Source of the DNA: an uncultured Opitutales bacterium
GTDB lineage: Bacteria; Verrucomicrobiota; Verrucomicrobiia; Opitutales; UBA953
Length of the DNA: 16,821 bases
Reading direction: 5' to 3'
Assembly (NCBI GenBank): GCA_934675585.1
Contig: CAKUQY010000034.1
Coordinates: 1-16,821, forward strand
Of this stretch, positions 1 to 16,821 are shown piece after piece; positions within the stretch are counted from its first letter, which is position 1, and each line of letters starts with the position of its first letter. The notes under the pieces were generated by a model. The model had not been told where the DNA came from. It made no database searches and saw only the letters and a list, made by a program, of their open reading frames with translations. Made by a program: the position numbers and the translations under genes.

Positions 1-43
1 TGATTCCTAATAAACCTACGGTTTTTCATTCCCGCGTTCCCGC
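1..43 (+). repeat. End module of the large intergenic repeat, cut by the window edge
   Basis: Bases 1-43 are the exact reverse complement of 2042-2084. They carry the CCTACGGTTTTTCATTCCCG module that ends the other intergenic repeat copies (2042-2284, 3861-4076, 4141-4358, 15943-16199). The rest of this copy probably lies left of the window. Bases 44-105 hold one further GTTCCC motif and a small GCGCTTTCAGCGC hairpin, but no gene. Confidence 0.8.
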
Positions 44-105
44 GAAGTTTCCCGTATTCTGTCGCGCTTTCAGCGCTCAATTTTTGTTCCCGCGTTTTTC
101 TAAAA

Positions 106-1659
106 TTAATTTTCAATCTCGGGAACGACAAAACCGCTCGCTTCCACAATGCGACTCACGCCCAACATCACAAAAACCTCTTTCGCGTTCCCGCGCGGCA
201 TAAACCAATATTGATAAACGCCTGGACGCACAATCACGACGCTTTCGGGAACGAGAATTTCGTTGCTGTCGGTGCGCACATTGGCGGGAACAAAAAATAA
301 TTCTGGCGCGTATTCTTTTGCCAACATCGGCAACTCGGTAATTTCAATGACAATCGCGGGCGGCGATTTTTTTAAAATGCGAAAATAATCATCGTCCAAA
401 AACGCGCGCATTCGGCAAGTTTGTCCCGCAAAACTCACTCGCGTATTCGCCGCTTTTCCCAACTTTAATTTTTGCTCGGGCAAAATTTCATTCGCGCCAA
501 AACCTTGCATTTTAACGAGTTTAGCGAGCACCGCCCACTCATCATTTTCGCGCGGGAACGCCACTTTGGCAATCGGCGTCGAAAGCACGTTCCCGTCAAG
601 CGTGCCAAACTCCTCATTTTCCAAAAAGCGCACATTCACATGAAAACGGTCCGGCGCGGTCAAACAAATTTGCTGCGGGTCGGTCGGCGCAAACATCAAA
701 ACATCGGCGGGAACAATCTCCGCGCCCGTCGCCTCTCGCAAAGTTTTTGCCGAGCCCAACGCAAAATTGCCCAAGCGCCAATTGTAAAAATTTTCTGTTC
801 CCGCCAACTCAATTTCCATTTTGCCAAACGCCGCGCTCATTTCTTGCGGCATCGAAAAACTACGCAAATCGCGCGGGAACGCAATCGATTTTACCACCGC
901 AGTCATCGCGGGAACGGGCAAGCGTTCGCTCTGCGCACGCTCGTCATCGGTCAATTTTTGCATGCCGTAAAGTTCGGGCGGAATATCAAAATTTTGCGAA
1001 ACAAAACGGCATTCGAATTCGTCCAATTTTTGCCACGCGCCGTTCCCGTCTTTCGCCTCGACTCGCAACAACCAATGTTCCGAAAAATCACTGCCAAAAT
1101 CGCTGCTCCAAACAGGCCGCACTGGCAACGGCATCGCCGCAATCGCATCGCCCGTTTTTGAATGAAAAACCGTAAAACTTTCAGGATCCAACTGCATCGC
1201 AAAACGCGTTGCGGGATCAACGATTGAAAACGCAAATTTTTCGCGGTCAAAAAACGCTTTGCCAAAACTTTTATAACCCGCCGTCTTCATCTCATCAACG
1301 TTCCCGCGAGCATAAATCCAAACAAATGGCACATTGACAACCTCGCCCGCGCGGTCCGTATCCGCAAAATAATAATCCGCAAAACGTTCCCGCGCCTCAC
1401 GACTGCCGCCCTTAAAACTCAAACCCATTTTGTGAAGCGTCGCCAAAAAATTCGTTCCCGCAAAACTCACCAACTCCTCACCATTTTGCTCAATGCCCAA
1501 CACCGCAAACGTCGTCGTTTCGTTGCGGCATTCATACTGAAAACGGTCGCGCCACATCAGCCAGCCCATCGCCAACAACGCAATCAGCGTTCCCGCAACA
1601 AGCGCGCAAAACAACAACGAAACCCGATTCTTCGGCAAATCGTCAATCGTTATTCGCAT
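106..1659 (-). CDS. Unknown membrane-anchored protein, 517 aa
   Basis: I do not recognise this family. The protein has one hydrophobic segment at about residues 14-36, preceded by a short basic N-terminus and followed by a long soluble part, so it is probably anchored by an N-terminal helix with most of the chain outside the membrane. The soluble part is rich in beta-type alternation and shows no catalytic motif I can name. The start ATG shares its A with the stop of the upstream cysteine-protein gene (TAATG), which implies translational coupling and co-transcription. The coding sequence is loaded with the GTTCCC motif, giving repeated Ala-Gly-Thr, Val-Pro-Ala, Gly-Asn and Phe-Pro-Arg steps. 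That suggests a protein under weak sequence constraint. Function unknown; that it is a real gene is fairly sure from its length and coupling. Confidence 0.8.
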   Translation of the reverse strand: MRITIDDLPKNRVSLLFCALVAGTLIALLAMGWLMWRDRFQYECRNETTTFAVLGIEQNGEELVSFAGTNFLATLHKMGLSFKGGSREARERFADYYFADTDRAGEVVNVPFVWIYARGNVDEMKTAGYKSFGKAFFDREKFAFSIVDPATRFAMQLDPESFTVFHSKTGDAIAAMPLPVRPVWSSDFGSDFSEHWLLRVEAKDGNGAWQKLDEFECRFVSQNFDIPPELYGMQKLTDDERAQSERLPVPAMTAVVKSIAFPRDLRSFSMPQEMSAAFGKMEIELAGTENFYNWRLGNFALGSAKTLREATGAEIVPADVLMFAPTDPQQICLTAPDRFHVNVRFLENEEFGTLDGNVLSTPIAKVAFPRENDEWAVLAKLVKMQGFGANEILPEQKLKLGKAANTRVSFAGQTCRMRAFLDDDYFRILKKSPPAIVIEITELPMLAKEYAPELFFVPANVRTDSNEILVPESVVIVRPGVYQYWFMPRGNAKEVFVMLGVSRIVEASGFVVPEIEN

Positions 1660-1988
1660 TACTTCTTCGACTCTCCAAGCTCAACTCCACTCACAACACA
1701 TTGCGGACACGGCACGCGATAAATCTGCTTTAATTCTTTGCAAAATATCGAACCATTTTTGTTTTTAAACGCTTCAACAACCGCATCCGCATTTTGCACA
1801 CCCACAATCATCATCGCCGCATAAACCGCGCCACACATGCCATTCGGCGCACGACCTACACCACAATCACTCAATTTTTCTAGCAAATCTTCACGCCCCA
1901 AACCATACGCAACCGCTTGCGCGCAATTAAGCCGCAACGGCGGTTGACGAAAGGCGGACAATGCCTTATTTTTTGCATTTTCTTCCAT
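1659..1988 (-). CDS. C_GCAxxG_C_C family cysteine protein, 109 aa
   Basis: Resembles the C_GCAxxG_C_C family, small proteins with spaced cysteines thought to have redox or metal-related roles; their precise function is not established. Visible cysteines fall at residues 22 (in LNCAQAV), 42, 52 (in NGMCGAVYAA), 83 (FCKELK) and 94/97 (CPQC), matching the family pattern of NCAQ, CGA and a C-terminal C-x-x-C. I chose the ATG at 1988 rather than an in-frame GTG at 2036, because a perfect TATAAT lies six bases upstream, which would give a leaderless message. It is followed on a TAATG overlap by the membrane-anchored unknown. It contains no GTTCCC motif, unlike its neighbours, so it may be a newer arrival or more constrained. 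Confidence 0.8.
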   Translation of the reverse strand: MEENAKNKALSAFRQPPLRLNCAQAVAYGLGREDLLEKLSDCGVGRAPNGMCGAVYAAMMIVGVQNADAVVEAFKNKNGSIFCKELKQIYRVPCPQCVVSGVELGESKK

Positions 1989-1994
1989 AAAATC

Positions 1995-2000
1995 ATTATA
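1995..2000 (-). promoter_or_regulatory. Candidate -10 box for the cysteine-protein gene
   Basis: A perfect TATAAT on the minus strand lies six bases before the ATG at 1988. Transcription would start at or beside the A of the ATG. No good -35 box is visible at 16-18 bp, so this is weaker than the other promoters in the window. Confidence 0.4.
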
Positions 2001-2041
2001 AATTACGCCAAACTTTTTCGCGAGAAATTTGAACACAAACG

Positions 2042-2284
2042 GCGGGAACGCGGGAATGAAAAACCGTAGGTTTATTAGGAATCAATAGGATTTTTGAGTT
2101 GTGCCGAAGACACTAAAATCGCTTGCGATGGCTAACCCCCACAAAAGCGAGCGAATTTTATTTCAGTTATTTTCAAACTCGGTCATCGTCATGGTCACGC
2201 GAATGCGCGTCTCGCGTGTGAGGGTAAAACAAAAATAACACCTGTCCCAAAGGGGGTGAACTAAAAAAACTTCGCGGGAACGTG
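2042..2284 (-). repeat. Large modular intergenic repeat, copy A (reverse)
   Basis: Read on the minus strand it holds, in order: a CGTTCCCGCGAAG start, a TTCACCCCC...GGG hairpin, a poly-T/GTTTTACCCTCACAC segment, a GAGACGCGCATTCGCG block with ATGACN hexamer repeats, TTTTGTGGGGGTTAGCCATCGC, a small hairpin around the GTGTCTTCGGCAC module, and the CCTACGGTTTTTCATTCCCG end. Copy D (15943-16199) is nearly the same along its whole length. Copies B and C lack the GAGACGCG/ATGACN block. No open reading frame is convincing in it. Confidence 0.85.
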
Positions 2285-2289
2285 GGAGC

Positions 2290-2700
2290 GCGGGTTTTAT
2301 TTCTCACGCAGATCTCGCAGATTGCGCAAATTTTTTGGGAGGAGCGGCATCTTGCCGCTCCATTTTTGTTATTTTTTCCCGCAAACTCAAAGCGCCAACG
2401 GCGCGTCTTATTTCAGCCCAGAGCACAAGCCCTGGGTAAGCTTCGTGAAAAGTGCGTTCCCGCGATGAAAGCGCCTACGGCGAAAAGGTTTTTGAAGGAG
2501 GCGGTACCGAGCAACGCGAGATGGAACCATTTCTAACTTCGCCACGAGAGGCGAGAGAACGGCGGGAACGACAAAACGCGCGTGGAACGCGCAACACGAA
2601 TAACCGCGGGTTTTAACCCGCGGGAACGCAAAAATAACGATGCGCCTGTAAGACGCAACTTCACCGCGAAACAAAACCTATTTTCCCGCTTCCCGCACAT
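2290..2700. repeat. Gene-free block of short hairpin modules
   Basis: This stretch holds a string of unrelated short inverted repeats: GGAGCGGCATCTTGCCGCTCC at about 2340, GCGCCAACGGCGC at 2391, CCCAGAG...CCCTGGG near 2415, CGCCTACGGCG near 2470, GCGCGTGGAACGCGC near 2578 and CCGCGGGTTTTAACCCGCGG near 2604. A 15-base TCACGCAGATCTCGC word (2304-2318) recurs inverted at 16225-16239. Such mosaics resemble REP-like intergenic elements. The open frames that cross it are arginine-rich artefacts. Confidence 0.6.
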
Positions 2701-2761
2701 CCCCGCGAACGTTAGTGAGCGAGCGTAAGCTACTCGCAATCGGTGTTAAAAAACGTTCCCG
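2701..2761. repeat. Intergenic repeat shared with 7466-7528
   Basis: The segment containing GTTAGTGAGCGAGCGTAAGC and CTACTCGCAATCGGTGT recurs with small changes at 7466-7528. In both places it lies just beyond the terminator of a minus-strand gene and ends in the CGTTCCCG arm of that terminator. Confidence 0.75.
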
Positions 2762-2781
2762 CGAGCAAGCCCACGGGAACG
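2748..2781 (-). terminator. Intrinsic terminator of the first PEP-CTERM gene, built from a motif pair
   Basis: On the minus strand CGTTCCCG (2781-2774) pairs with CGGGAACG (2761-2754), followed by six T (2753-2748). The stem is two inverted copies of the iterated motif. It lies about 30 bases past the stop codon at 2812. Confidence 0.75.
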
Positions 2782-2895
2782 ACAAAACAATATGAAAAAA
2801 TTCTTTTCAAATTAGCGACGGCGGCGACGCGCACCAACTAATGCCAACGCACCCAATCCCGCCAACAGGCCGAACGCCGACGGCTCGGGAACAGC
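2772..2895 (-). repeat. PEP-CTERM 3' cassette, copy 1
   Basis: These 124 bases match 16390-16513 without gaps and with about four mismatches. They cover the terminator arm, 30 non-coding bases and the codons of the PEP-CTERM tail. Identity stops abruptly just upstream of the Val-Pro-Glu-Pro codons, where the two genes diverge. Confidence 0.9.
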
Positions 2896-3507
2896 CGGAG
2901 AAACCGCATCACCGTATTTCAACGAAATGTTGGAATAGGTGTCCGTCCTGCTGTTCGTCCACAAGCGCGTGTTGCTGTTGTTGCCCAGAAACGTTGTGTT
3001 GCTATCCGGAGCGTTAACGGTGGCTTCTTTCTTATCGCCGAACTTCAATTTCAAAACCGACAGCGCCGCTGAGGAGTCGCTCGATTTGAGATAAGTGAGC
3101 ACAACGGTCTGGCTGGAGCCGGTGGCAGGCTTCGTGATATTCGTCAGCAATGCCCAGTCGCTACCGCCTTTCGTGCCGAATTTCAAGGTGCCGTTGTTGT
3201 CGCTTTCCCATTGCAGGACGATGCCGTTGGCACCGGAGGATGCCGCACCGTTCGTCCCGAAGAGGTCGATGGGGGTGGTGACATTACTATTAGTCGAAGC
3301 CCAGCTGAACGAAAGCTGCCAGCTGTTCGTCAGACTGCCACTGGGATCGCCCGACCACGAGAAGCCGGAGTTCCCGGAGCTAAGCGTGCCGCTCGGCTCA
3401 GTGAGCGTAAGATCCGTCCACTCCGGTTCCGGCAACGTGTTTCCTTCCGCGTTTGCGAAAGCCGTTCCCGCGGCGAGGAGCGCTGTAATTGTAATGAGAT
3501 TTTTCAT
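2812..3507 (-). CDS. PEP-CTERM sorted exported protein, 231 aa
   Basis: A secreted protein handled by an exosortase-type sorting system. Residues 1-20 form a signal peptide (MKNLITITALLAAGTAFANA, with an ANA cleavage site). The middle is rich in Ser, Thr, Asn and Gly with alternating Trp and Phe, like small beta-sandwich surface proteins of Verrucomicrobiota. The tail from residue 206 is VPEPSAFGLLAGLGALALVG followed by Ala and five Arg: the PEP motif, a hydrophobic helix and a basic end that define PEP-CTERM substrates. The tail is identical to that of the gene at 16430. No exosortase is in this window. Codons are more GC-rich and the motif rarer than in neighbours. The upstream region is AT-rich with no clear Shine-Dalgarno. 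The exact role (surface, matrix, adhesion) cannot be told. Confidence 0.9.
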   Translation of the reverse strand: MKNLITITALLAAGTAFANAEGNTLPEPEWTDLTLTEPSGTLSSGNSGFSWSGDPSGSLTNSWQLSFSWASTNSNVTTPIDLFGTNGAASSGANGIVLQWESDNNGTLKFGTKGGSDWALLTNITKPATGSSQTVVLTYLKSSDSSAALSVLKLKFGDKKEATVNAPDSNTTFLGNNSNTRLWTNSRTDTYSNISLKYGDAVSPAVPEPSAFGLLAGLGALALVGARRRRR

Positions 3508-3544
3508 ATATTTTATAATTTTTTTGTTTAAGATTTAAGATTTC

Positions 3545-3565
3545 GTTTGAAGACCATCTTCAAAC
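3545..3565. promoter_or_regulatory. 21-bp inverted repeat upstream of the PEP-CTERM gene
   Basis: GTTTGAAGA, three bases, then TCTTCAAAC: a perfect 9-bp dyad about 40 bases before the ATG at 3507. It could be a regulator binding site or a hairpin in a 5' leader. I see no clear promoter boxes between it and the start. Confidence 0.4.
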
Positions 3566-3810
3566 TTGAAACATTCTAAATTCAAAAAAAAAAACGCAAG
3601 CACAAAATTAAATTCGCGTTCCCGCAAGATTAAAAAAATCAAAAAATTTCTTCGTTTTCTTTAGCGAGCGAACGCGAGCAGGTGCCCTTAAATTCTTTTT
3701 TTTTCTTGTTCCCGCGCGTCTGCGTTGCCTTAGCAACGCGCCCAAAAAATCTTCGTGCCTTTGTGTCTTCGTGTGAGATTTTTTCCCGTTCCCGCGCCCA
3801 CCAACAAAAA
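3566..3810. other. Gene-free intergenic region with short repeats
   Basis: AT-rich, with several A and T runs. It holds GTTCCC motifs at about 3620, 3710 and 3790, a GCGTTGCCTTAGCAACGC hairpin at about 3722-3739, and a CTTCGTGCCTTTGTGTCTTCGTG stretch (from 3751) that resembles low-complexity intergenic repeats found in many environmental bacterial genomes. No gene seen. Confidence 0.6.
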
Positions 3811-4076
3811 ATCTTAGTTTCTCTTAAATTTTCCCCGTAGTTTCCTTAGTTGAAAAAAATCCCGTTCCCGCAAACTCTCAGCTTTTTTAGTTCACCCCCT
3901 TCGGGGCTGATTTTATTTTTGTTTTACCCCCACACGCTCGCGTTCCCGCAAGCTTTTGTGGGGGTTAGCCATCGCGGGAAGGCGTTCCCGCAATTTCAGT
4001 GCCTTCGGCACAATTAAAAAAACTATTTTCCCCTATTCTGCCTACGGTTTCTCAATTTCTGTTCCCGCGTTCCCGA
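3811..4076 (+). repeat. Tandem repeat unit 1: CTTAG module plus large repeat copy B
   Basis: The first part (3811-3860) is a TCTTAG...CCCCGTAGTTTCCTTAG module; the second (3861-4076) is copy B of the large intergenic repeat. Copy B has the TCAC-CCCC-TTC-GGGG-CTGA hairpin, an ACCCCCACA/TGTGGGGGT stem, a GTGCC-TTC-GGCAC hairpin and a CCTACGG end. It lacks the ATGACN block of copies A and D. Unit 2 follows directly in the same orientation. Confidence 0.85.
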
Positions 4077-4090
4077 GCAACAAACAAAAA

Positions 4091-4358
4091 TTCTTAGTTT
4101 TCCTTAAATTTTCCCCGTAGTTTCCTTAGATGAAAAATTCCCGTTCCCGCCGCAAACTCTCAGCTTTTTTAGTTCACTCCCTTCGGGACTGATTTTGTTT
4201 TTGATCGACCCCCACACGCTCGCGTTCGCTCGCTTTTGTGGGGGTTAGCCATCGCGGAAACGCGTTCCCGCAATTTCAGTGCCTTCGGCACAAGCCAAGT
4301 TCCTATTTATTTCTACTAAACCTACGGATTTTCCATTCCCGTTCCCGCGTTCCCGCGG
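4091..4358 (+). repeat. Tandem repeat unit 2: CTTAG module plus large repeat copy C
   Basis: Same order of modules as unit 1: the CTTAG module at 4091-4139, copy C at 4141-4358. In the first hairpin the outer C-G pair of copy B is replaced by T-A (TCAC-TCCC-TTC-GGGA-CTGA), a compensatory change. The unit ends two bases before the rseP stop codon on the opposite strand. Confidence 0.85.
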
Positions 4359-4359
4359 G

Positions 4360-6174
4360 TTATTTTTTCATCAATTTTAAATAATCGTTCGAAAGTGTAA
4401 ATTTTTCGATTTGTGTGGCTTGTTTTGCGTCTTGATTGCCTTGCAAGCGCGACCAATCGTTGAGCAAAACGTAGCCCATAAATCCAAAAAGCAACATCAT
4501 AAAAAACATCGTGATACAGCTTTGCGTGCGTATTGAGATTGCTTTTTTGCGCAAGCGGTTAATGGTGGCAATCAAAATGTGCCCGCCGTCGAGCACGGGA
4601 ACGGGAAGCAAATTCAAAATCGCCAGATTGATGTTGATCATCACTGTCAAACTCAACAGCAAATACAAACTTTGCGAAAAACGGTAATAAACTTCGCCGA
4701 TTGAAAACACGCCGTTCATGTGTTTGATGCTAATGTCGCTGCTTGGATTCACCAATCCCGCGAGCGATTTAAATGTGACATCGACGCTGCGCCACAAAAG
4801 CGAAAACGCGTTCACGTGTTTTGTCGTCATCGCTGGCGCAAAGCCCACGCCGATAAATGCTTCAGGCGTTCCTGCCACAAAATTCACGGACTTAATCGTT
4901 CCCGCAACCACCGCCGATTCTCCGTTGGGATAAGTGATAAAAAATTTCACCGTTGGCGTTCCCGCGAGCATTTTTGCAAACTCGGGCAATTTTTTTGCGG
5001 GAACAATTTTTGCGTTCCCGCCGATGCTCACGCCGTCAATAACCGTGCCGATTGGGAACTCGTCGGTGCTTGTCAAAAATGTGCGCAAAGTTTCGCGCGA
5101 CGCAGACAAACTGACGTTTTCCAAATCGCTCGGCGTTGCCAAAATGTGCAGATTTTGAGTGTTCCCGTCGCGTTCGAATGTCAAATTTAACAAATCGGCG
5201 TTGCGCGTAATCGCGAGTGGCTGAATCGTGGCGCGTTGTGCGTTCCCGTCGCGTTCGTAAGTAATTTCAACCGCAGTGTTAGCGTCGCGGGAACGCAAAA
5301 TCGCGCTCAAATGTGAAACGTTTCCCACTTTTTCATCGCCGACTTTTGTAATCACATCGCCCGCTTGCAAGCCCGCTTTTTCGGCGGGAAGATTTTTTGC
5401 GGGAACGATGCGCGCGGGCAAAAATTGTTCCAAGCCCAGCATGCGCACGCGATCGCCCACACGCGAATTTGTCGCAACGAGCGCGGGTTTTACGACAACT
5501 TCGTGCGTTCCCGTTGCGTTTTCAATTGTCAAAACGGCTTGTGGATTTCCCGATTCGTCGTGATTTGTGCCAAACGCAATCGCCGTGGCGACTTTCGAAA
5601 AATCGTTCACGGGAACGCCATCGACGGCGATAATTTTATCAAAAACTTTTATGCCCGCCACAAAAGCGGGTCCCGCGACTTCCACGCCCGGCTCGATTTC
5701 CAACGTTTTTTCGACGTTCCCGACAACCGTCGTTTCCGCATTCACGGGAACGTCCACTGGAATCGCCCACGCGACAAAAGCCAAAACCACCGCGAAAACG
5801 ACGTTGAAAAATGCTCCCGCCGCCAAAACGATAACGCGGTCGAGATAAGTGATTTGTGTGCGCGTTTTGCAACGCGCCAATTGTTGCAAATTAATTTTGT
5901 CGCCGCCCTCAATCGCCGACATTTCCGCCAAATCGGGAACGGCAACATAGCCGCCCAAGGGCAACAACGAAATGCAATATTCAATGCCCGAACGCGCACT
6001 CGTCCAAGTAAAAAGACGCGGACCAAAACCGATCGAAAAACGCGTTACGCGAATACCACGCCAGCGCGCCGCCAAAAAATGCCCCAATTCATGAACAAAA
6101 ATCGACCCGCCAAAAAACACGACAATCGCCACAATACCTTGCAGCGTCGAAAACAATGATAAAAAACTTTCCAT
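4360..6174 (-). CDS. rseP: RseP-type site-2 intramembrane metalloprotease, 604 aa
   Basis: Zinc metalloprotease of the inner membrane that cuts membrane-bound anti-sigma factors and signal-peptide remnants. The first membrane helix carries HELGH at residues 28-32 (two His and the catalytic Glu). The third zinc ligand is the Asp of LLPVPVLDGGH at about residue 529, near the C-terminal helices. Between them lie at least two PDZ-like domains, one ending AGIKVFDKIIAVDGVPV and one with AGLQAGDVITKVGD. Typical members are about 420-450 residues, so the periplasmic part here is enlarged by about 150. That insert is rich in iterated motifs (Val-Pro-Ala, Ala-Gly-Thr, Asp-Gly-Asn). The start is supported by a promoter ending eight bases upstream. 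It stands alone: ddh upstream has its own promoter and a terminator-like hairpin between them. The substrate is unknown; no anti-sigma gene is nearby. Confidence 0.93.
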   Translation of the reverse strand: MESFLSLFSTLQGIVAIVVFFGGSIFVHELGHFLAARWRGIRVTRFSIGFGPRLFTWTSARSGIEYCISLLPLGGYVAVPDLAEMSAIEGGDKINLQQLARCKTRTQITYLDRVIVLAAGAFFNVVFAVVLAFVAWAIPVDVPVNAETTVVGNVEKTLEIEPGVEVAGPAFVAGIKVFDKIIAVDGVPVNDFSKVATAIAFGTNHDESGNPQAVLTIENATGTHEVVVKPALVATNSRVGDRVRMLGLEQFLPARIVPAKNLPAEKAGLQAGDVITKVGDEKVGNVSHLSAILRSRDANTAVEITYERDGNAQRATIQPLAITRNADLLNLTFERDGNTQNLHILATPSDLENVSLSASRETLRTFLTSTDEFPIGTVIDGVSIGGNAKIVPAKKLPEFAKMLAGTPTVKFFITYPNGESAVVAGTIKSVNFVAGTPEAFIGVGFAPAMTTKHVNAFSLLWRSVDVTFKSLAGLVNPSSDISIKHMNGVFSIGEVYYRFSQSLYLLLSLTVMININLAILNLLPVPVLDGGHILIATINRLRKKAISIRTQSCITMFFMMLLFGFMGYVLLNDWSRLQGNQDAKQATQIEKFTLSNDYLKLMKK

Positions 6175-6182
6175 TGCAATCT

Positions 6183-6211
6183 ATTCTAATAAATTCCCGT
6201 TCCCGCGACAA
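6183..6211 (-). promoter_or_regulatory. Promoter of rseP
   Basis: TTGTCG, 17 bp, TAGAAT, then 8 bases to the ATG at 6174. Transcription would begin one or two bases before the start codon, so the message is nearly leaderless. The spacer contains GGGAAC in the direction of transcription. Confidence 0.6.
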
Positions 6212-6216
6212 AGCAA

Positions 6217-6255
6217 AATGCGTTCCCGCGGGAATGCTATTCACGGGAACGCATT
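6217..6255 (-). terminator. Motif-pair hairpin after ddh, probable terminator
   Basis: AATGCGTTCCCG (6217-6228) pairs perfectly over 12 bp with CGGGAACGCATT (6244-6255), about 25 bases past the ddh stop. On the minus strand it is followed by TTTGCTTTG, a poor T run, so termination may be partial. It directly precedes the rseP promoter. Confidence 0.55.
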
Positions 6256-6279
6256 TGTTGTTGTTTTTGCGGGAACGCT

Positions 6280-7272: not shown

Positions 7273-7282
7273 AACGTTTACA

Positions 7283-7551: not shown

Positions 7552-7571
7552 CGTTTTTACGAATTTGAAAA

Positions 7572-9136: not shown

Positions 9137-9142
9137 ATCTAA

Positions 9143-9853: not shown

Positions 9854-9872
9854 AATTTCGCGTTCCCGCCAA

Positions 9873-10820
9873 TTATTTTCCTTTTTCTAACGGATGCGTT
9901 CGCGCGTGTTCACTAATCAAACGCGTTTTCGCAACGGCGGTGTAAATCTCGGTCGTTGAAATATTGGCGTGACCAAGCATTTCTTGAATCGAACGCAAAT
10001 CCGCCCCGTGCGCGAGCAAATGCGTCGCGAACGCGTGGCGCAATTCGTGCGGATGAAGTTTTTTGCGAATTCCCGCGCGGGTCGCCCATTCCTGCACGAG
10101 CACCCAAAGCGTTTTGCGCGAAATTGCTTTGCCCCATTGACTCAAAAAAACGGCGCTGCCCGTTTTTTCTTTGACCAATTTAGCGCGACCATTTTCACTA
10201 TTTAAATACGTTTCAATGGCGCAAATGGCGCTTTTGCCGACGGGAACGAGCCGCTCTTTGTTGCCTTTGCCATGCACCAAAATCACACCTTCATCGAGAT
10301 TGAGCGATTGTAGCTCGATTTTGCAAATTTCACTCGCGCGCAAACCCGAAGAATACATCAGTTCGAGCATCGCGCGATCCCGCAAACCTTGTGGCGTTCT
10401 CGGCATTTCTGCTTCGAGCAAACGCGTAATTTCTTCTTCCGTCGGCGCATCGGGAACGCTTTTAACAACCGACGGTGGAGAAATAATTTCACAAAAATCA
10501 TCCGCGCGAATACCTTCGATCACGAGCCATTTTGCGAGCAAATGCAAGGCAGACAATTTGCGCGCCGCGCTGCGAGCGCTCACGGCGTGTTTGGTCAAAT
10601 CTGCCAACCAATCAGAAACGTGCTCGGGTTGAACATCTTCCCACGTTCCCGCCAACTTTTTTTTGCGCAAAAAATCTCCAAATTCGAGCAAATCTTTTTC
10701 GTAAGCCGCGTGCGTATTTTTTGACAAACCTCGTTCCAAATCAAGATACGACAAAAAATCTTCCAGCGACAATTTCATCGCGGGAACGAGCGTCCAATGC
10801 GATTGCTCTTTGTGGCGCAT
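9873..10820 (-). CDS. Tyrosine recombinase of the XerC/XerD type, 315 aa
   Basis: Site-specific recombinase; the chromosomal members resolve chromosome dimers at dif. The N-terminal SAM-like core-binding domain spans about residues 16-100 (DFLSYLDLERGLSKNT, then ARKLSALH). All catalytic residues are present: Arg161 (SSGLRASEI), Lys185 (HGKGNKER), His258 and Arg261 (HPHELRHAFATHLL), His284 (LGHANISTT) and the Tyr293 nucleophile (TEIYTAV). Length and motifs fit XerC/XerD rather than a phage integrase, and there are no phage genes nearby. I cannot say which of the two it is. The ATG at 10820 overlaps the gmk stop as TAATG; an internal ATG at 10778 is the alternative. It is the third gene of the unit starting at 11980. 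No dif-like site was recognised in the window. Confidence 0.93.
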   Translation of the reverse strand: MRHKEQSHWTLVPAMKLSLEDFLSYLDLERGLSKNTHAAYEKDLLEFGDFLRKKKLAGTWEDVQPEHVSDWLADLTKHAVSARSAARKLSALHLLAKWLVIEGIRADDFCEIISPPSVVKSVPDAPTEEEITRLLEAEMPRTPQGLRDRAMLELMYSSGLRASEICKIELQSLNLDEGVILVHGKGNKERLVPVGKSAICAIETYLNSENGRAKLVKEKTGSAVFLSQWGKAISRKTLWVLVQEWATRAGIRKKLHPHELRHAFATHLLAHGADLRSIQEMLGHANISTTEIYTAVAKTRLISEHARTHPLEKGK

Positions 10821-11422
10821 TAATTTGCAACGCGCATTTGTGCCGCCGTATAAATCGCGCAAATGCGTTCAAAATCGCGTTCCCGCGAATCAGAAACCAA
10901 ACAAAAATCAAATTCATTCACGCGCGCCATTTCATCGAGCGCAACTTTCATGCGGCGCTCGACTTCATCTTCGGCGTCCGTTCCGCGTCCAACCAGGCGG
11001 GAACGCAATTCTTCAACGCTCGGCGGCATCACAAAAACCGAAACCAACGCCGCGCGCAATTGTAGATTTTTTTCGGCGACTTTTCGCAACGTCGCCGCGC
11101 CCTGCACATCGAGATTGATGATGACATTTTTACCCGCGTCCAAAAGTTCACTCACTTGCGCTTGGCGCACGCCATAGCGATTGGAATGCACGCGCGCATG
11201 TTCGAGAAATTCGCCGTTGGCAACGCCCGATTCAAAATCTTCATGCGACAAAAAATAATAATCGATGCCGTGTTGTTCGTTCCCGCGCGGTGCTCGCGTT
11301 GTGCAAGTTACCGCGCGCGCAATTTCTTGCGGGAACGCCGCCGTCAGCCGATCGCAAAGCGTGGTTTTGCCGCTGCCCGCTGGCCCCGAAATGAGCATTA
11401 AAACAGGATGAGATTTGAACAT
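10820..11422 (-). CDS. gmk: Guanylate kinase, 200 aa
   Basis: Phosphorylates GMP to GDP with ATP, an essential step of guanine nucleotide synthesis. The P-loop is GPAGSGKTT at residues 13-21. The GMP-binding segment TCTTRAPRGNEQHGIDYYFL is present, followed by FLEHARVHSNRYG and the NLDVQGA Walker-B-like strand. Length is typical (about 200). It lies between a membrane protein gene (6-bp gap) and the recombinase gene (TAATG overlap), so all three are probably one transcript. No Shine-Dalgarno is visible before the ATG; the leader is only T and A. The C-terminal part carries a motif read as Arg-Glu-Arg (SRERDFER). Confidence 0.97.
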   Translation of the reverse strand: MFKSHPVLMLISGPAGSGKTTLCDRLTAAFPQEIARAVTCTTRAPRGNEQHGIDYYFLSHEDFESGVANGEFLEHARVHSNRYGVRQAQVSELLDAGKNVIINLDVQGAATLRKVAEKNLQLRAALVSVFVMPPSVEELRSRLVGRGTDAEDEVERRMKVALDEMARVNEFDFCLVSDSRERDFERICAIYTAAQMRVAN

Positions 11423-11428
11423 AATTTT

Positions 11429-11980
11429 TTAAATACAGAAAATTCCTTGAACTAAATTTGCTGCCCCAAGCGCCAAAAAAAGCGTTCCCGCAACGAGCGA
11501 ATTGCGTTTGCTCGCGAACGACCAAGTCAGCCAATCGCGCAACAAATACGGCGACGCGCCAACAAAAAGCGCGGCGATGATAAACAAATAAACCGTTCCC
11601 GCCAAAACGCGAGAATACGGCACGAGCGTGTAGCCGATTTGCAACAATTCATTCGCTCCAAAAAGCGTCAAAACTGCCAGCGCGCGCAAACTTAACAAGT
11701 CCGACAAATATTTAAATGCCAGCGTTCCCGCCGCCATAAAAACGACAATCACCGGCCAACGCGGAAATCCCGCAAAATCGACTTCATCAAGCGTGTAAAG
11801 ATGATAAAAAAACCATGCGAGAGCCGCGCCCCAAAGCAGCGTTCCCGCCACCGTCGAACGCGGCAAGCGCAGCCAAAGTTTTCCGCCGCGCGCGTTCCCG
11901 CTAAAAAACGTTCCCGCGACAATCGCAAAAAATGTCGCGAGCGCGTAATAAGTAATTTGAAGCGTTTGAAGCTTTTCCAT
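11429..11980 (-). CDS. Unknown integral membrane protein, 183 aa
   Basis: About six hydrophobic segments are visible, connected by short loops; one loop is charged (YTLDEVDFAGFPRW). I do not recognise the family and see no catalytic motif. The ATG at 11980 is chosen because a strong promoter ends 7 bases upstream; an in-frame extension to 12115 has no support. It is the first gene of the unit with gmk and the recombinase. Several membrane segments contain Val-Ala-Gly-Thr or Ala-Ala-Gly-Thr, each encoded by an iterated GGGAAC motif, showing how tolerant helices absorb the repeat. The role in the operon is unclear. Confidence 0.75.
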   Translation of the reverse strand: MEKLQTLQITYYALATFFAIVAGTFFSGNARGGKLWLRLPRSTVAGTLLWGAALAWFFYHLYTLDEVDFAGFPRWPVIVVFMAAGTLAFKYLSDLLSLRALAVLTLFGANELLQIGYTLVPYSRVLAGTVYLFIIAALFVGASPYLLRDWLTWSFASKRNSLVAGTLFLALGAANLVQGIFCI

Positions 11981-11987
11981 AATTAAA

Positions 11988-12016
11988 ATTTTAAGAAAAT
12001 CGTTCCCGCCGAGCAA
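11988..12016 (-). promoter_or_regulatory. Promoter of the membrane protein-gmk-recombinase unit
   Basis: TTGCTC, 17 bp, TAAAAT, then 7 bases to the ATG at 11980, so the message is essentially leaderless. The spacer holds GGCGGGAACG in the direction of transcription. Confidence 0.6.
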
Positions 12017-12117
12017 GGTAAATTTCCGGCTGCCCAATCGCTGTTTTGTAGCGGGAACAGAAATTAACGGGAACGTGATTTTTAATGCAGATTTCGCAAT
12101 TTGCTGCGTCCACAACT

Positions 12118-12336
12118 TTAAAGATCAAAAATTATTGGCGTTTTTTCTTTTTGAGCAATACGAAAAATCTTCTGCAAATGGCTCAACGAAAGAAATACTT
12201 TGTTACTATCGTTATTTTTAGACTTCAAAAAATTAGCGACAATTTTATCCGCAGCTTCGGCTTTTTCAAATGGCAATAATTGGCATTCCCCAATCGTGAT
12301 TTGTAGTCCCAACTGAGCATTTAACAGATCGAGTAG
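12118..12336 (-). pseudogene. Open frame of about 72 codons, possible gene remnant
   Basis: The minus-strand frame is open from a TAA at 12337-12339 down to its stop at 12118. It has protein-like composition (LLPFEKAEAADKIVANF, then KVFLSLSHLQKIFRIAQKE, ending TPIIFDL), yet no ATG and only a TTG at 12312. It is AT-rich and holds no GTTCCC motif. It could be the C-terminal end of a decayed gene or a small gene with a rare start. I do not recognise a family. Confidence 0.3.
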
Positions 12337-12361
12337 TTAAAAAGATAATTTCCATTCCTGG

Positions 12362-12385
12362 CTTCCCGAATTAACCTTCGGGAAG
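12362..12385 (+). other. Hairpin upstream of ilvA
   Basis: CTTCCCGAA, six bases, TTCGGGAAG: a perfect 9-bp stem without a T run. It lies 26 bases before the terminator-like hairpin at 12412. Confidence 0.4.
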
Positions 12386-12411
12386 TTCGGTATTTGTGCG
12401 GTGTTCCCGCG

Positions 12412-12440
12412 AAATTGGGATAAGTTATCCCAATTTTTTT
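12412..12440 (+). terminator. Strong intrinsic terminator upstream of ilvA
   Basis: AAATTGGGA (12412-12420) and TCCCAATTT (12428-12436) pair perfectly, and TAA/TTA in the loop can extend the stem. The T run continues to 12440. No plus-strand gene ends nearby, so it either blocks read-through towards ilvA or is part of an attenuated leader. The stem is not made of the iterated motif, unlike the other terminators here. Confidence 0.65.
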
Positions 12441-12515
12441 GTTCCCGCCAAAATTTCTTCAAAAATGGATTTTAGAATTTAAATAAAACTCGCGGGAACG
12501 CAAACGCGCTTAACA

Positions 12516-12544
12516 TTGCACCACGGGAACGGGCGGAGTAAAAT
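12516..12544 (+). promoter_or_regulatory. Promoter of ilvA
   Basis: TTGCAC, 17 bp, TAAAAT, then 9 bases to the ATG at 12554. The predicted leader is 2-3 bases. The spacer holds CACGGGAACG in the direction of transcription. A GGAG lies 15 bases before the ATG, too far to serve as a ribosome site. Confidence 0.55.
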
Positions 12545-12553
12545 AGTTTTATT

Positions 12554-14080
12554 ATGTCAGAACTGAGTGATAAAGTTTTTAATGCCATTTTGATGGCGCG
12601 CCAAAGTGTTTATAAAGTTGCGCAAGCGACGCCGACAGAAGAATTAGTCGGGAGCGAATTGCCGTTTCGCTTGTTTGTAAAACGCGAAGATTTGGGTCCG
12701 ATTAAAGCGTACAAATGGCGCGGCGCCTACAATCGCATGGTTCATTTGACGGCAGAAGAGCGTTCCCGCGGCGTTGTGGCGGCTTCGGCGGGCAATCACG
12801 CGCAAGGTGTAGCGCTCGCGGCAAAGCGTTTGGGCGTTCACGCAAAAATTTACATGCCACTTTCAACGCCCGCGGTAAAACAAAGCGCAGTCAAGCGTTT
12901 TGGCGGCGAATTTGTGGAAATCGTTTTGTTTGGCGATTCATATTCGGAAGCTGGCGACGAAGCCAAAAAATTTGCGCACGAAAAAAATCTCACTTTCATT
13001 CATCCCTACGACGACGTTCTCGTGATGGGCGGACAAGGCACGCTCGCGGACGAAGCCGTGATGAGCGGGAAAGGTCCGTTTGACGTGGCTTATCTGCAAA
13101 TCGGCGGCGGTGGCATGGCGGCGGCAACGGCTGTCTGGCTCAAAAATCAGTTCCCAGGAATTAAAATTTACGGTGTCGAAGGCGTGAATCAAGCGTCGAT
13201 GAAAACCGCGCTCGAAAAAGGCGTTCCCGTGGACATCGGTCCCGTGGATATTTTTTGCGACGGCACGGCGGTTCGCAAGGCGGGAACGCTGACTTACGAA
13301 CTTTGCAAAGAATTTCTCGACGGAATCGTAACGGTTACGAACGAAGACGTTTGCTGGGCGATTCAAAAACTTTGGGAAACCAACCGCATCGTTCCCGAAA
13401 CTTCGGGCGCGATGGGCGTTGCCGCGGCGCTCAAATACAGCGACGAACTGACGGGCAAAAAAGTGTTCACGGTGATTTCTGGCGCGAACGCAGATTTTGG
13501 GAAACTCCGCGTCATCACGCGCAACGCGCAAATCGCGGGAAGACAAAATTACGCGCTCCGCATCGATTTGCCCGAACGCCCAGGTTCGTTCCTGACGGTG
13601 CTGCAAAAAACGTTCGACAATTTGAGCATCACGGAATTTCAATACGGGAAAACCTCCTCGCAAATCGCGTCGCCCGTCATCGGCGTTTCTTTGACACCAG
13701 ACGAATTCAAAAAAGTCACGGCATCGCTCGACGAACAAAAAATCCGCTGGAGCGACGTTACGCGCGACGCGGATGTCGTTTTCCGCGTCATTCCTTTCGA
13801 GCGCGAACTGCTGCGTTTCCCGACGTTTATCCAAGTCAATTTCCGCGAACGCGCGAACGGCTTGCGTGAATTTTTGACAACTTATCTCGGCGACAAATAC
13901 AATCTCTGCTACTTCAATTATTTTTATTCGGGCGAAACGATCGGCCGCGCACTGATTGGTGTTGAGGCGGAAAATGAAGAACGGCGCGACGAACTGTTGC
14001 GCCAGCTGACCGGAAGGCTCAAAGGCGTGCAAACCTACACGATTCTCAGCGGGAACGTCGCCCAACGACTCGGCAGCTAA
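12554..14080 (+). CDS. ilvA: Threonine ammonia-lyase, biosynthetic, 508 aa
   Basis: PLP enzyme that converts threonine to 2-oxobutanoate, the first step to isoleucine. The PLP lysine is Lys54 in KAYKWRGAYN, following KREDLGP; the common form is SFKLRGA, so this site is slightly variant. The SAGNHAQGVA loop and the phosphate-binding GGGG turn (QIGGGGMAAA) are present. From about residue 330 the chain carries the two ACT-like regulatory domains (LRIDLPERPGSFLTVL, then FIQVNFRERANGLREFL) that mark the long, isoleucine-inhibited form. Length is normal for that form. The aminotransferase gene starts on its stop codon (TAATG), so the two are coupled. The C-terminal half has no iterated motif for about 660 bp, the longest gap in the window. 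Confidence 0.95.
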   Translation: MSELSDKVFNAILMARQSVYKVAQATPTEELVGSELPFRLFVKREDLGPIKAYKWRGAYNRMVHLTAEERSRGVVAASAGNHAQGVALAAKRLGVHAKIYMPLSTPAVKQSAVKRFGGEFVEIVLFGDSYSEAGDEAKKFAHEKNLTFIHPYDDVLVMGGQGTLADEAVMSGKGPFDVAYLQIGGGGMAAATAVWLKNQFPGIKIYGVEGVNQASMKTALEKGVPVDIGPVDIFCDGTAVRKAGTLTYELCKEFLDGIVTVTNEDVCWAIQKLWETNRIVPETSGAMGVAAALKYSDELTGKKVFTVISGANADFGKLRVITRNAQIAGRQNYALRIDLPERPGSFLTVLQKTFDNLSITEFQYGKTSSQIASPVIGVSLTPDEFKKVTASLDEQKIRWSDVTRDADVVFRVIPFERELLRFPTFIQVNFRERANGLREFLTTYLGDKYNLCYFNYFYSGETIGRALIGVEAENEERRDELLRQLTGRLKGVQTYTILSGNVAQRLGS

Positions 14081-15276
14081 TGTTCACCGACCGCTTTAAA
14101 TTTTCGCTGAAGCCCAACCGCTGGACGCGCATTTTAAAAAGCGTGCGCGAAGATGGTTGCGATTTGATCGATTTGGCAATTTCAAATCCAAGCGCCGCAG
14201 GGTTTGCTTGGGACGCGGGAACGCTCGCAAATGCGCTCGGGAACGCCGAAATCGCGCGCTATTCGCCCTCGCCTCGCGGGAACGCAAATGCGCGCCAAGC
14301 CATTGTTGATTTTTACAAAAATACGCATGCCTGCGCGCTTGCTCCCGAACAAATTCATCTCACCGCCAGCACAAGCGAAGCGTATGGCTGGTTGTTAAAA
14401 TTACTGACAAATCCTGGCGACAACATTTTAATGCCCACGCCATCGTATCCGCTCATCGCGTTTTTGTGCGGCATGGAAGCGGTCGAAACGCGCGACTACA
14501 ATTTAGTTTTTCGCGACAATCGTTGGCAAATCGATTTTGAATCGCTCGCGGCAGCTTGCAATGAAAAAACGAAAGCCATTTTTTGCGTCAGCCCAAACAA
14601 TCCAACGGGAAATTTGCCAAGCCAATCCGAGCGGGAACGCCTTTTGCAATTCGCGCGGAAACGCCAATTAGCACTCGTCGTCGATGAAGTTTTTTTCGAA
14701 TACCTCGCGCCCAATTGCAACGGCAAAACATTTGCAAATTGCCAAATCTCAACAGACGATTCTCAACTCGTTTTCGTGCTCGGCGGACTTTCAAAAACCG
14801 CCGCGCTCCCGCAAATCAAAGCGGGGTGGATTATCACCTGCGGGAACGCAAATTTGCGCGACGAAGCACTCGCACGCTTAGATTTTATTGCGGACACTTT
14901 TCTCTCGCTCAGCACGCCTGCAGCCCTCGCCGTTCCCGCGCTCTTAAAAGCCGCTCCCGCAATACGCGAACTCATCAACGCTCGACTCAACAACAATTTT
15001 GAATTGCTGAAAAATTGGTGCGCGCGTTCCCGCGACGGATGTTTTTTGCTGCCACGCGAAGGTGGCTGGTACGGCATTGTGCGCCTGCCCAAAGGCATTG
15101 ACGAAGAAACGCTCTGCACCGATCTTTTGCGCCACGGGAACGTGATTGTACACCCCGGTTATTTTTACGATTTGGAAAATAACGACGGCGCACATTTAGT
15201 TTTTTCACTTTTGTCGCCCAGCATTTTTTTTGAAAAAGCGTTCCCGCTGATCGATTACGCCATCGCACGTAATTAG
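14080..15276 (+). CDS. PLP-dependent aminotransferase, fold type I, 398 aa
   Basis: Class I/II aminotransferase. Visible landmarks are STSEAYGWLL (PLP phosphate contact), SPNNPTGN at 171-178, Asp202 in VVDEVF (pyridine nitrogen) and the PLP Lys239 in GGLSKTAALP. The place where many aspartate-type aminotransferases have a carboxylate-binding Arg near the C-terminus reads AHLVFSLLS, with no Arg, so substrate binding may differ. Coupling to ilvA by a TAATG overlap suggests a role in amino acid metabolism, perhaps transamination linked to branched-chain or alanine pools, but substrate cannot be read from sequence. Iterated motifs are frequent (about nine). It ends 15 bp before the convergent toxin gene. 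Confidence 0.9.
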   Translation: MFTDRFKFSLKPNRWTRILKSVREDGCDLIDLAISNPSAAGFAWDAGTLANALGNAEIARYSPSPRGNANARQAIVDFYKNTHACALAPEQIHLTASTSEAYGWLLKLLTNPGDNILMPTPSYPLIAFLCGMEAVETRDYNLVFRDNRWQIDFESLAAACNEKTKAIFCVSPNNPTGNLPSQSERERLLQFARKRQLALVVDEVFFEYLAPNCNGKTFANCQISTDDSQLVFVLGGLSKTAALPQIKAGWIITCGNANLRDEALARLDFIADTFLSLSTPAALAVPALLKAAPAIRELINARLNNNFELLKNWCARSRDGCFLLPREGGWYGIVRLPKGIDEETLCTDLLRHGNVIVHPGYFYDLENNDGAHLVFSLLSPSIFFEKAFPLIDYAIARN

Positions 15277-15291
15277 CGCGGAAACAAAATT

Positions 15292-15666
15292 TTAGGTGTA
15301 TTTTTTTACCCACGCGAGAAGAGCATCGTAATTCATCGTTCCCGCCGCAACCCCGAGTCCCGCTTCGACAATCGCCTCGTCTGGGCAATTGACTTCGATA
15401 CCATTTAACTCCAAAAACGTGATCATAATAAACATGCCAATGCGCTTGTTGCCATCAACAAATGCATGATTAGCAATAAGTGAAAATCCCAAACGAGCCG
15501 CTTTTTCGCGCTTACTTGGATAAAATTCACTTTCTCCAACGCCTGCATAAATTTGTTCTAACGCAGAATCAAGAAGATTAGCATTACGCAGACCTACGCT
15601 CCCGCCAGTTTCTTGCGCAATTAGCTGGTGCAACAACAAAACTTTTTCGCGCGAAAATTTAATCAT
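15292..15666 (-). CDS. Doc-family (Fic fold) toxin, 124 aa
   Basis: Death-on-curing type toxin; characterised Doc phosphorylates elongation factor Tu and stops translation. The signature HAFVDGNKR is at residues 67-75, matching the H-x-F-x-D/N-x-N-K-R loop of Doc. Length is typical (about 120-130). The upstream antitoxin gene overlaps it (stop TGA inside ATGA), the usual arrangement for coupled toxin-antitoxin pairs. The GTTCCC motif is present only near its 3' end, so the pair looks compositionally foreign. Whether the module is active is not visible, but no residue of the core motif is missing. Confidence 0.92.
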   Translation of the reverse strand: MIKFSREKVLLLHQLIAQETGGSVGLRNANLLDSALEQIYAGVGESEFYPSKREKAARLGFSLIANHAFVDGNKRIGMFIMITFLELNGIEVNCPDEAIVEAGLGVAAGTMNYDALLAWVKKYT

Positions 15667-15905
15667 TTTGCCAATTCTAAAAATGCCTTTTTATAACGTT
15701 TTAAAACACGAGCAGCGACAATAGATAATTTTTCATCATCGGTCAAATCTAATTGCACCGATTTTTCTAAATCAACAAACAAAAAGCGCGGACGATTATT
15801 TTTGAAAATAACAGCCCGAGAATTTTCTTCAGCCAACGCAACTAATTTTGAAAAATTACGATTGGCTTCCGTAATCGAAATAATTTCATTTGTTCGAATA
15901 ACCAT
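15663..15905 (-). CDS. Phd/YefM-family antitoxin, 80 aa
   Basis: Antitoxin with an N-terminal DNA-binding domain that also represses its own operon, and a C-terminal tail that covers the toxin. The N-terminus (ISITEANRNFSKLVALAEE, then VIFKNNRPRFLFV) fits the Phd/YefM fold; the last 30 residues are Lys/Leu-rich and would be the toxin-binding helix. The ATG at 15905 is chosen because a well-formed promoter ends six bases upstream; a TTG at 15920 would lie inside that promoter. It overlaps the toxin start by an ATGA. It contains no GTTCCC motif. Confidence 0.9.
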   Translation of the reverse strand: MVIRTNEIISITEANRNFSKLVALAEENSRAVIFKNNRPRFLFVDLEKSVQLDLTDDEKLSIVAARVLKRYKKAFLELAK

Positions 15906-15911
15906 AAAATA

Positions 15912-15940
15912 ATTATACAAAAAAGTAGCTACTTTTTCAA
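15912..15940 (-). promoter_or_regulatory. Promoter and palindromic operator of the toxin-antitoxin operon
   Basis: TTGAAA, 17 bp, TATAAT, then 6 bases to the ATG at 15905, so transcription would start on the A of the start codon. A perfect 18-bp palindrome AAAAAGTAGCTACTTTTT (15920-15937) fills the spacer and touches the -35 box. It is well placed for autorepression by the antitoxin. Confidence 0.8.
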
Positions 15941-15942
15941 GG

Positions 15943-16199
15943 CGTTCCCGCGAAGTTTTAATTCACCCCCTTCGGGGCTGGTGTTATTTTTGTTTTACCC
16001 TCACACGCGAGACGCGCATTCGCGCGACTATGACGATGACAATGACGATGACCGAGTTTGAAAATAACTGAAATAAAATTCGCTCGCTTTTGTGGGGGTT
16101 AGCCATCGCGGGAACGCGTTCCCGCAATTTTAGTGCCTTCGGCACAGCAAGTTCCTATTTTTTCCTAATCTGCCTACGGTTTTTCATTTCCGTTCCCGC
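15943..16199 (+). repeat. Large modular intergenic repeat, copy D
   Basis: Same module order as copy A (2042-2284) in the opposite orientation, including the GAGACGCGCATTCGCG block. The ATGACN hexamer occurs four times here against twice in copy A. The TTC-GGGG hairpin, the TTTTGTGGGGGTTAGCCATCGC segment, the GTGCCTTCGGCAC hairpin and the CCTACGG end are all present. Confidence 0.85.
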
Positions 16200-16363
16200 T
16201 CACTCAAAAAAATCTGTGAAATCGGCGAGATCTGCGTGAAAAAATCCTGCGTTCCCGCGCGAACAACAACAAATCTTAGTTTCCTTTAATTTTCCCGTAG
16301 TTGTCTTAGATGAAAAATTCTCGTTCCCGCGCGAAACACTAAAACCTTCGTTCCCTTCGCGGT
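16200..16363. repeat. Gene-free region with short intergenic repeat words
   Basis: Contains the inverted copy of TCACGCAGATCTCGC (16225-16239; other copy 2304-2318), a third copy of the CTTAG module (16273-16319) and a CCTTCGTTCCCTTCGCGGT segment. No gene seen. Confidence 0.65.
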
Positions 16364-16399
16364 AAAAAACGTTCCCGCAAAGTTACCTTCACGGGAACG
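16364..16399 (-). terminator. Intrinsic terminator of the second PEP-CTERM gene, built from a motif pair
   Basis: On the minus strand CGTTCCCG (16399-16392) pairs with CGGGAACG (16377-16370), followed by six T (16369-16364). Same layout as the terminator at 2748-2781 but with a different loop. Confidence 0.75.
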
Positions 16400-16513
16400 A
16401 CAAAACAATATGAAAAAATTCTTTTCAAATTAGCGACGGCGACGACGCGCACCAACTAATGCCAACGCACCTAAGCCCGCCAACAGACCGAACGCCGACG
16501 GCTCGGGAACAGC
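16390..16513 (-). repeat. PEP-CTERM 3' cassette, copy 2
   Basis: Gapless match to 2772-2895 with about four mismatches in 124 bases. It spans a terminator arm, the non-coding spacer and the PEP-CTERM codons. Confidence 0.9.
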
Positions 16514-16821
16514 TAACTTGTAGTAGTTTGTGAGATCTGTTGCACCCGCATTTCCGCCGGTCCAGTAAGCTGCCCCGAGCAACTTAAAACTACCTGCTTG
16601 ATCATTTGATGGGAACTTACTTGTCATTGTAGAATTTATATTACCAATACCCCAAAAATTAAAAGAAGTAATTTCACGATTACTAAAAGAGAATGAAGAA
16701 TTATTATAATCTACAGTCAAAAGTTTTTGCGAAAAATCGCCATTTGCATAAACAGAGATTGATAGGTTATTACCGTTTTCACGATTGAAAACAAATGTTA
16801 AATCTTTTTTACCTTTGGCAA
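16430..16821 (-). CDS. PEP-CTERM sorted exported protein, C-terminal part (5' end outside window)
   Basis: The frame stays open from its stop at 16430 to the window edge, so about 130 codons are seen and the start lies beyond. The visible chain is Asn-, Ser- and Phe-rich (KKDLTFVFNRENGNNLSISV, then NREITSFNFWGIGNINSTM), a beta-rich exported style. It ends in the same PEP-CTERM tail as the gene at 2812: PEP motif, hydrophobic helix, five Arg. Except for the tail the two proteins are not alike. The body is markedly AT-richer than the tail, and the base-composition break falls where the shared 124-bp cassette begins. An in-frame TTG at 16720 is not a likely start, because protein-like sequence continues past it. 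Confidence 0.88.
   Translation of the reverse strand, partial: AKGKKDLTFVFNRENGNNLSISVYANGDFSQKLLTVDYNNSSFSFSNREITSFNFWGIGNINSTMTSKFPSNDQAGSFKLLGAAYWTGGNAGATDLTNYYKLAVPEPSAFGLLAGLGALALVGARRRRR

Follow-up and report, generated by a model that had tools for sequence, protein, structure and literature searches.

The stretch of 16,821 bp analyzed here (48% GC; hereafter the window) raises the question of why one short word, GTTCCC, recurs throughout it on both strands. Expected counts were taken from a first-order Markov model. A first-pass annotation, made from the letters of the window, had put the number of GTTCCC/GGGAAC copies at about 130, and our recount gave exactly 130, with both orientations in use as annotated (78 on the plus and 52 on the minus strand). 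As 6.4 copies are expected, the excess stands but is about 20-fold rather than the 15-fold given before. The density of 7.7 per kb agrees with the earlier figure of about eight, and the copies extend from 36 to 16611, so that the span given at the time (35..16515) was correct to within about 100 bases. We argue below that the word, in its fuller form CGTTCCCG(C), is probably a genome-wide label resembling the DNA uptake sequences of other bacteria, one that would have evolved independently in Verrucomicrobiota.

The stronger word in the window is CGTTCCCG. It tops the list of over-represented 8-mers, with 67 copies on the plus and 43 on the minus strand where 1.1 are expected in all, and its copies start at positions 35 to 16392. 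Of the 130 GTTCCC/GGGAAC copies, 76 belong to CGTTCCCGC. The motif had been annotated in nearly all genes and between them, and we found CGTTCCCG in 13 of the 14 predicted genes and in all seven stretches taken as intergenic, the last of which (15667-16821) probably includes coding sequence too. A repeated intergenic element, present as two tandem copies at 3800-4360 and once more at 15943-16340, contains 14 of the 110 copies as judged by position, and the window density is therefore somewhat inflated. Amplification of this element was rejected as the source of the word, since it accounts for about 14 of the 110 copies and for the window only. The two regions concerned are:

35..16399, both strands: region with 110 CGTTCCCG copies, against 1.1 expected
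3508..4359: intergenic stretch with 10 motifs and the two tandem copies (280-base spacing) of the repeated element

For the annotation, an enrichment limited to the window would have counted against the motif. This is not the case, as related genomes are enriched genome-wide. Among the 79 genomes of the family of G161, an Opitutales-like family, six (G161, G405, G194, G406, G361, and G267; the rich genomes) carry 3,060-4,396 copies of CGTTCCCGC each, and two (G407 and G408; the weak genomes) carry 743 and 336 copies. The remaining 71 have at most 172 copies, without clear excess over the control. In the six rich genomes forward and reverse counts of CGTTCCCGC differ by less than 10%, and the reversed-word control occurs only 44-60 times. 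A wider sample of 384 genomes from the class of G007 contained four with 3,353-3,907 copies, while the other 380 had at most 344, by eye no more than about three times the reversed-word control. The densest genome has about 2,700 CGTTCCCGC per Mb (4,396 copies; size given as 1.6 Mb), which is probably denser than the DNA uptake sequence (DUS) of the Neisseriaceae.

The six rich and two weak genomes are here called the clade. A ComEC tree of 18 genomes groups these eight together with full support, apart from the ten others. The window was placed by means of one of its genes:

7572..8594, minus strand: aspartate-semialdehyde dehydrogenase gene, used for placing the window

The encoded dehydrogenase has 89% amino acid identity to that of G267, 85% to those of G194, G407, G361, G406, and G161, 82% to that of G405, and 80% to that of G408. 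Named matches, among the best 80 of at least 594, were to Verrucomicrobiota at up to 67% identity. A homologue of a clade prepilin carries the name Opitutales bacterium, Opitutales being an order within Verrucomicrobiota. The word may have been lost from G407 and G408 or never gained by them; the ComEC and dehydrogenase trees are compatible with either. The ComEC end branches within the clade (L127, L129, L131-L136) reach 1.44 changes per column and those of the dehydrogenase at most about 0.12, and these branch lengths suggest that ComEC is evolving fast in the clade.

The shape of the word was derived from 71-197 kb fetched per rich genome, that is, from a part of each genome. There the word reads CGTTCCCG, weakly preferring a C after it and a G before it, and occurs at 2.8-4.2 per kb; at more than three bases from the word the flanks hold at most 0.04 bits of information per position (four rich genomes). 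It is not palindromic; the other strand reads CGGGAACG. The exact word is enriched 26-42-fold in the six rich genomes and 96-fold in the window. Words with one mismatch are enriched 1.6-2.0-fold and 2.6-fold, respectively, and words with two mismatches occur at 0.9-1.1 and 0.9 times the expectation. Relative to expectation, the commonest one-mismatch variant in most sources has the first base changed (TGTTCCCG), and variants changed at inner positions (CGCTCCCG, CGATCCCG) are likewise in excess.

In the weak genomes the exact word is enriched 5-fold (G407) and 4-fold (G408), and a relaxed word, NTTCCCGC, is enriched whatever its first base. Whole-genome counts of HTTCCCGC relative to the reversed control were 2.5-6.8 in the eight clade genomes (5.2 in G407 and 4.9 in G408). 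Outside the clade they were at about control level in most genomes, and 1.4-2.3 in G395-G403 except for G399 at 1.0. The weak, relaxed NTTCCCGC of G407 and G408 may resemble a dialect of the kind known for DUS, or it could be a product of decay.

Copies of the word are conserved in place. Of the motifs compared between G161 and G406 (92.7% identity), 176 of 216 were kept in one direction and 176 of 187 in the opposite one, compared to 56-60% for GC-rich controls, and from G161 to G194 (79.6% identity) 29 of 44 were kept (66%), compared to 22-24% of GC-matched 8-mers. A three-genome alignment gave 30 of 51 G161 motifs kept in both G406 and G361, while the controls, 71 composition-matched permutations of the word, were kept in 33 of 168 cases. 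Across the clade, retention was above control from the window to G267 (16/27; control 24%), from G161 to G405 (15/25; control 24%), and from G267 to G405 (4/8; control 12%). Retention to the weak genomes was low: 1 of 25 motifs from G161 to G407 (control 20%), 2 of 20 from G194 to G407 (control 20%), and 2 of 18 from G161 to G408 (control 13%).

Seven pairs of syntenic loci, with motifs counted from either side of each pair, served to compare shared and unshared DNA. Aligned DNA carried 3.45 motifs per kb (680 motifs, 197 kb), compared to 1.63 per kb (28 motifs, 17 kb) in unaligned DNA, which is unshared between two relatives and not necessarily recently acquired. One unaligned part, L169, had a normal density with nine motifs in 2.6 kb. 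The flanks of the motifs were slightly more divergent than background (0.899 vs. 0.907; Mann-Whitney p 0.009, overlapping windows), and such divergence is reported for Neisseria too (PMC2397512). There were 22 motif-free stretches longer than 1.8 kb, some of them cut by locus ends. Five lie within G267 genes for ribosomal proteins, RpoB or RpoC (proteins judged by reading), one contains a PF01555 methyltransferase, and one adjoins a PF00145 methyltransferase.

Genes were called as the longest open reading frames, a simple method that made some wrong-strand calls, and reading frames and noncoding shares are therefore approximate. The word occupies all six reading frames, and certain frames dominate within genes. 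Summed over the window and the six rich genomes, 1239 copies within genes are antisense and 873 are sense. Density is higher in noncoding than in coding DNA in five of the seven sources (the window, where it is 12.0 vs. 5.5 per kb, G161, G406, G267, and G405) and about equal in G194 and G361. In the proteins, observed/expected ratios of the dipeptides GT, VP, and GN are 2.1, 2.5, and 2.3 in the window, 1.5-1.9, 1.3-1.7, and 1.5-3.1 in the rich genomes, and 1.2-1.4, 1.1, and 1.4-1.5 in G407 and G408, so that the GN ranges of rich and weak genomes overlap.

The dominance of certain frames and the excess of GT, VP, and GN are in agreement with an origin of the word in mutational or codon-usage bias, or in protein-level repeats (A-G-T, V-P, G-N). 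We nevertheless find such an origin highly improbable. The word is specific at eight bases, with two-mismatch words near expectation, and is conserved above matched controls. G407, with a roughly similar GC content, has about one-seventh of the density of G161. Protein repeats were ruled out by the use of six frames and the higher noncoding density in five of seven sources. Pure mutational bias is unlikely because of the specificity for the exact word (26-96-fold vs. 1.6-2.6-fold for one-mismatch words) and the conservation of sites.

Over 32 loci the two strands carry 1049 and 1059 copies. A polar strand signal was ruled out by this split, and a segregation or Chi-type signal is unlikely because there is no overall bias. 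The split does vary among loci (heterogeneity p about 1e-7; 17:55 at the extreme locus), and it correlates weakly with gene direction (r -0.41, p 0.02) and with GC skew, which served as a proxy for replication direction (r -0.33, p 0.06). Spacing is near random, except that overlapping copies are too rare and that close pairs and long gaps are somewhat too frequent. Together with the genome-wide spread and the conservation in place, the near-random spacing and the different splits between loci would fit a site that an abundant nucleoid, recombination or repair protein binds and that is selected for chromosome maintenance in the manner of Chi, FtsK orienting polar sequences (KOPS) or matS. However, Chi and KOPS are strongly polar and the word of the clade is not, its correlations with GC skew and gene direction are weak, and at 3-4 per kb it lies far above the density of Chi-, KOPS-, and matS-like signals. 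We regard a maintenance site of this kind as improbable.

Where two copies lie 10-30 bases apart between genes, 40 pairs read CGTTCCCG-CGGGAACG, 7 have the reverse order, and 11 and 7 are tandem. Of 14 intergenic examples inspected by eye, seven have at least five T after them, three have at least five A before them, and four have neither. We interpret the intergenic inverted pairs as putative terminator-like hairpins. The inverted pairs in the window are:

2754..2781: inverted pair CGTTCCCG...CGGGAACG, a hairpin between genes with an A run before it (a T run on the other strand)
6221..6251: intergenic inverted pair with the T-rich CATTTGTTGTTGTTT after it, weakly terminator-like
7521..7551: intergenic inverted pair with CGTTTTTACG after it, terminator-like
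8830..8845: two inverted copies that abut directly, CGTTCCCGCGGGAACG, within the L,D-transpeptidase gene at 8585-9136
16370..16399: inverted pair between genes with an A run before it, its right side within a 124-base repeat

The 124-base repeat is found at 2772-2895 and 16390-16513 and covers the C-terminal end of a PEP-CTERM gene and DNA beyond it.

Genes for transformation were searched for in 18 genomes, the eight of the clade and ten family genomes without the motif. ComEC and DprA were found in all 18, as were type II/IV secretion ATPases of a long and a short kind, which judging by their length are probably PilB- and PilT-type. Each of the six rich genomes has exactly seven N_methyl prepilin matches. 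G407 and G408 have 11 each, and one more long secretion ATPase each than the rich genomes. A small prepilin found in seven of the eight clade genomes (G407 was left out), with 22 homologues for the G361 copy, was considered as receptor but is not put forward because it is acidic and is present in the weak G408.

The word is thus abundant, clade-specific, strand-balanced, conserved in place, and in most sources commoner between genes. It forms terminator-like hairpins, is sparser in unshared DNA and missing from some long stretches, and the genomes carry transformation genes. In most of the genomic features compared it matches the pattern of DUS and of the uptake signal sequence (USS) of the Pasteurellaceae. 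DUS, too, are short asymmetric words present in thousands of copies on both strands, with inverted pairs as terminators, conserved in place, rare in recently acquired DNA, and surrounded by more divergent flanks; they also differ between lineages as dialects (PMC2397512, PMC3630211, PMC12616744). The relaxed word of the weak genomes may be a parallel to such dialects. Terminator pairs and dialects are described for USS as well (PMC12616744, PMC3630211). Two DUS dialect genomes are listed with 2,245 and 3,269 copies (PMC3630211), compared to up to 4,396 CGTTCCCGC in the clade. For the USS of H. influenzae 1,471 exact and 764 one-mismatch copies are given (PMC1939737), and the unequal orientation of the clade word within genes has a parallel in USS (PMC2346458). 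The differences are that the clade word is unrelated to DUS and belongs to another phylum, and that it lacks the A/T-rich downstream half of USS. From its genomic pattern alone the word would work like a DUS; we do not claim membership.

We therefore favor an uptake label, with the following mechanism in mind. Competent cells of the clade would preferentially take up or recombine DNA bearing the word, which would be read by a receptor. Recombination would restore broken copies and spread new ones, as a molecular drive combined with a mutation-selection balance, so that the genome would fill with the word wherever its proteins tolerate it.

Several sets of observations weigh against this interpretation. 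Retention was lower from G161 to G267 (2/9; control 14%) and from the window to G161 (3/10; control 25%); over the clade's two branches it is mixed and based on few sites, and counts of gains and losses polarized by an outgroup were small. Among pairs inside or partly inside genes, 50 read CGTTCCCG-CGGGAACG and 20 the reverse, and the close inverted pairs are hence not solely terminators. ComEC, DprA, and the secretion ATPases are found in all ten family genomes tested that have no motif, and competence genes therefore do not explain the difference in motif content. A ComEA match over the cut-off was found in none of the 18 genomes, while 17 had sub-threshold matches. In the clade the matches to TIGR00426 were rejected as ComEA as they are below the cut-off and fall in frames of 773-831 amino acids, which we presume to be Tex-like. 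Receptors of the ComP/FimT type are electropositive (PMC12616744). The 35 prepilins extracted, out of 53 counted in seven clade genomes (G407 left out), included no electropositive ComP-like pilin; all 35 are acidic with a pI of 4.2-5.5, although they may have a local basic patch. In this respect the clade would differ from the Neisseriaceae with their basic minor pilin ComP. Finally, N6/N4 methyltransferases are found in every clade genome, and the extra G before and C after the word give it GC at both ends, as in the highly iterated palindrome HIP1 of cyanobacteria.

The last two points bear on a further explanation, in which the word would be made and kept as a by-product of a methyltransferase and a bias of methylation-directed repair, and would have no role in uptake (the Elhai model). 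HIPs occur at 1000-2000 per Mb, are linked to methyltransferases, and resemble the clade word as very dense, dispersed 8-mers with GC at both ends (PMC4390886). The comparison with HIP1 made in the annotation holds genome-wide, with about 2,700 CGTTCCCGC per Mb in the densest genome. The commonest one-mismatch variant, TGTTCCCG, is changed at the first base, and HIP1 variants deviate most at the ends; however, the inner variants CGCTCCCG and CGATCCCG are in excess too. HIP1 is also a palindrome tied to identified methyltransferases, whereas the clade word is asymmetric. Our methyltransferase search covered two families, PF01555 and PF00145. PF01555 was found in eight of eight clade genomes compared to three of the ten others. 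However, no PF01555 group is common to the six rich genomes: group a is present in four, being missing in G194 and G406 and with a G161 copy only about 50% identical, and group b in three. PF00145 is patchy and absent from the rich genomes G405 and G361. Both of these negative results come from genomes that may be incomplete. The annotation had proposed to look for a matching methylase or a ComP/ComEA-like protein. Methyltransferases are indeed present, but no group from the two families searched is common to the rich six, ComEA exceeds its cut-off in 0 of 18 genomes, and the 35 pilins extracted are acidic. We consider a HIP-like origin rather unlikely. Among the candidate roles named at the outset, uptake thus fits best and methylation or repair stays the main rival, while segregation and pure mutational bias are unlikely.

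Some further observations concern the window and the distribution of repeated words. Proteins encoded in the window include, besides aspartate-semialdehyde dehydrogenase, diaminopimelate dehydrogenase, an M50 peptidase, guanylate kinase, a tyrosine recombinase, and a PEP-CTERM protein. A match to the Acido-Lenti-1 RNA at 2391-2436 on the minus strand scored 38.7 bits, barely over the gathering score of 37. A scan of viral contigs for the hairpin pattern returned at least 120 stretches, and 3 of the 80 loci listed exceed 1.5 motifs per kb. Viral contig L274 (IMGVR_UViG_3300019820_000004) carries 20 motifs over 12.3 kb, roughly half as many per kb as the host; it also has an S1 protein gene with 75% identity to the one in G267 and, by eye, phage-like genes. 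In 25-40 kb sampled from each of ten non-clade genomes no other comparable motif was found, except for CACCGG in G397. In the GC-rich G397 loci L223 and L224, CCGGTG occurs 150 times in 25 kb (27.5 expected), in both orientations, and may be another abundant word or reflect codon bias in a GC-rich genome. G408 carries a clustered GGGTTRGTGGTG repeat in both orientations at L103-L106, L174, L182, L190, and L197, several of them near contig ends. In this weak-motif genome the repeat is a different repeat system from CGTTCCCG.

No description of the motif was found among the papers listed from the open-access literature, as judged from titles and abstract openings. Self-DNA labels of this kind have so far been described from two other bacterial families. 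We tentatively propose, with somewhat less than even confidence, that the word is the third independently evolved uptake label and, on the literature compared, the first outside Proteobacteria. It would be denser per Mb than DUS and USS and be read by a receptor other than a basic ComP-type minor pilin, and it would have altered protein dipeptides in one clade while relaxing or decaying in two relatives. If this is true, a third case in another phylum would mean that DNA self-labelling evolves repeatedly. It would also give receptor searches a new starting point and allow the gain and loss of the label to be traced in close relatives that have or lack it, and it would be a sign of natural transformation among these Verrucomicrobiota.

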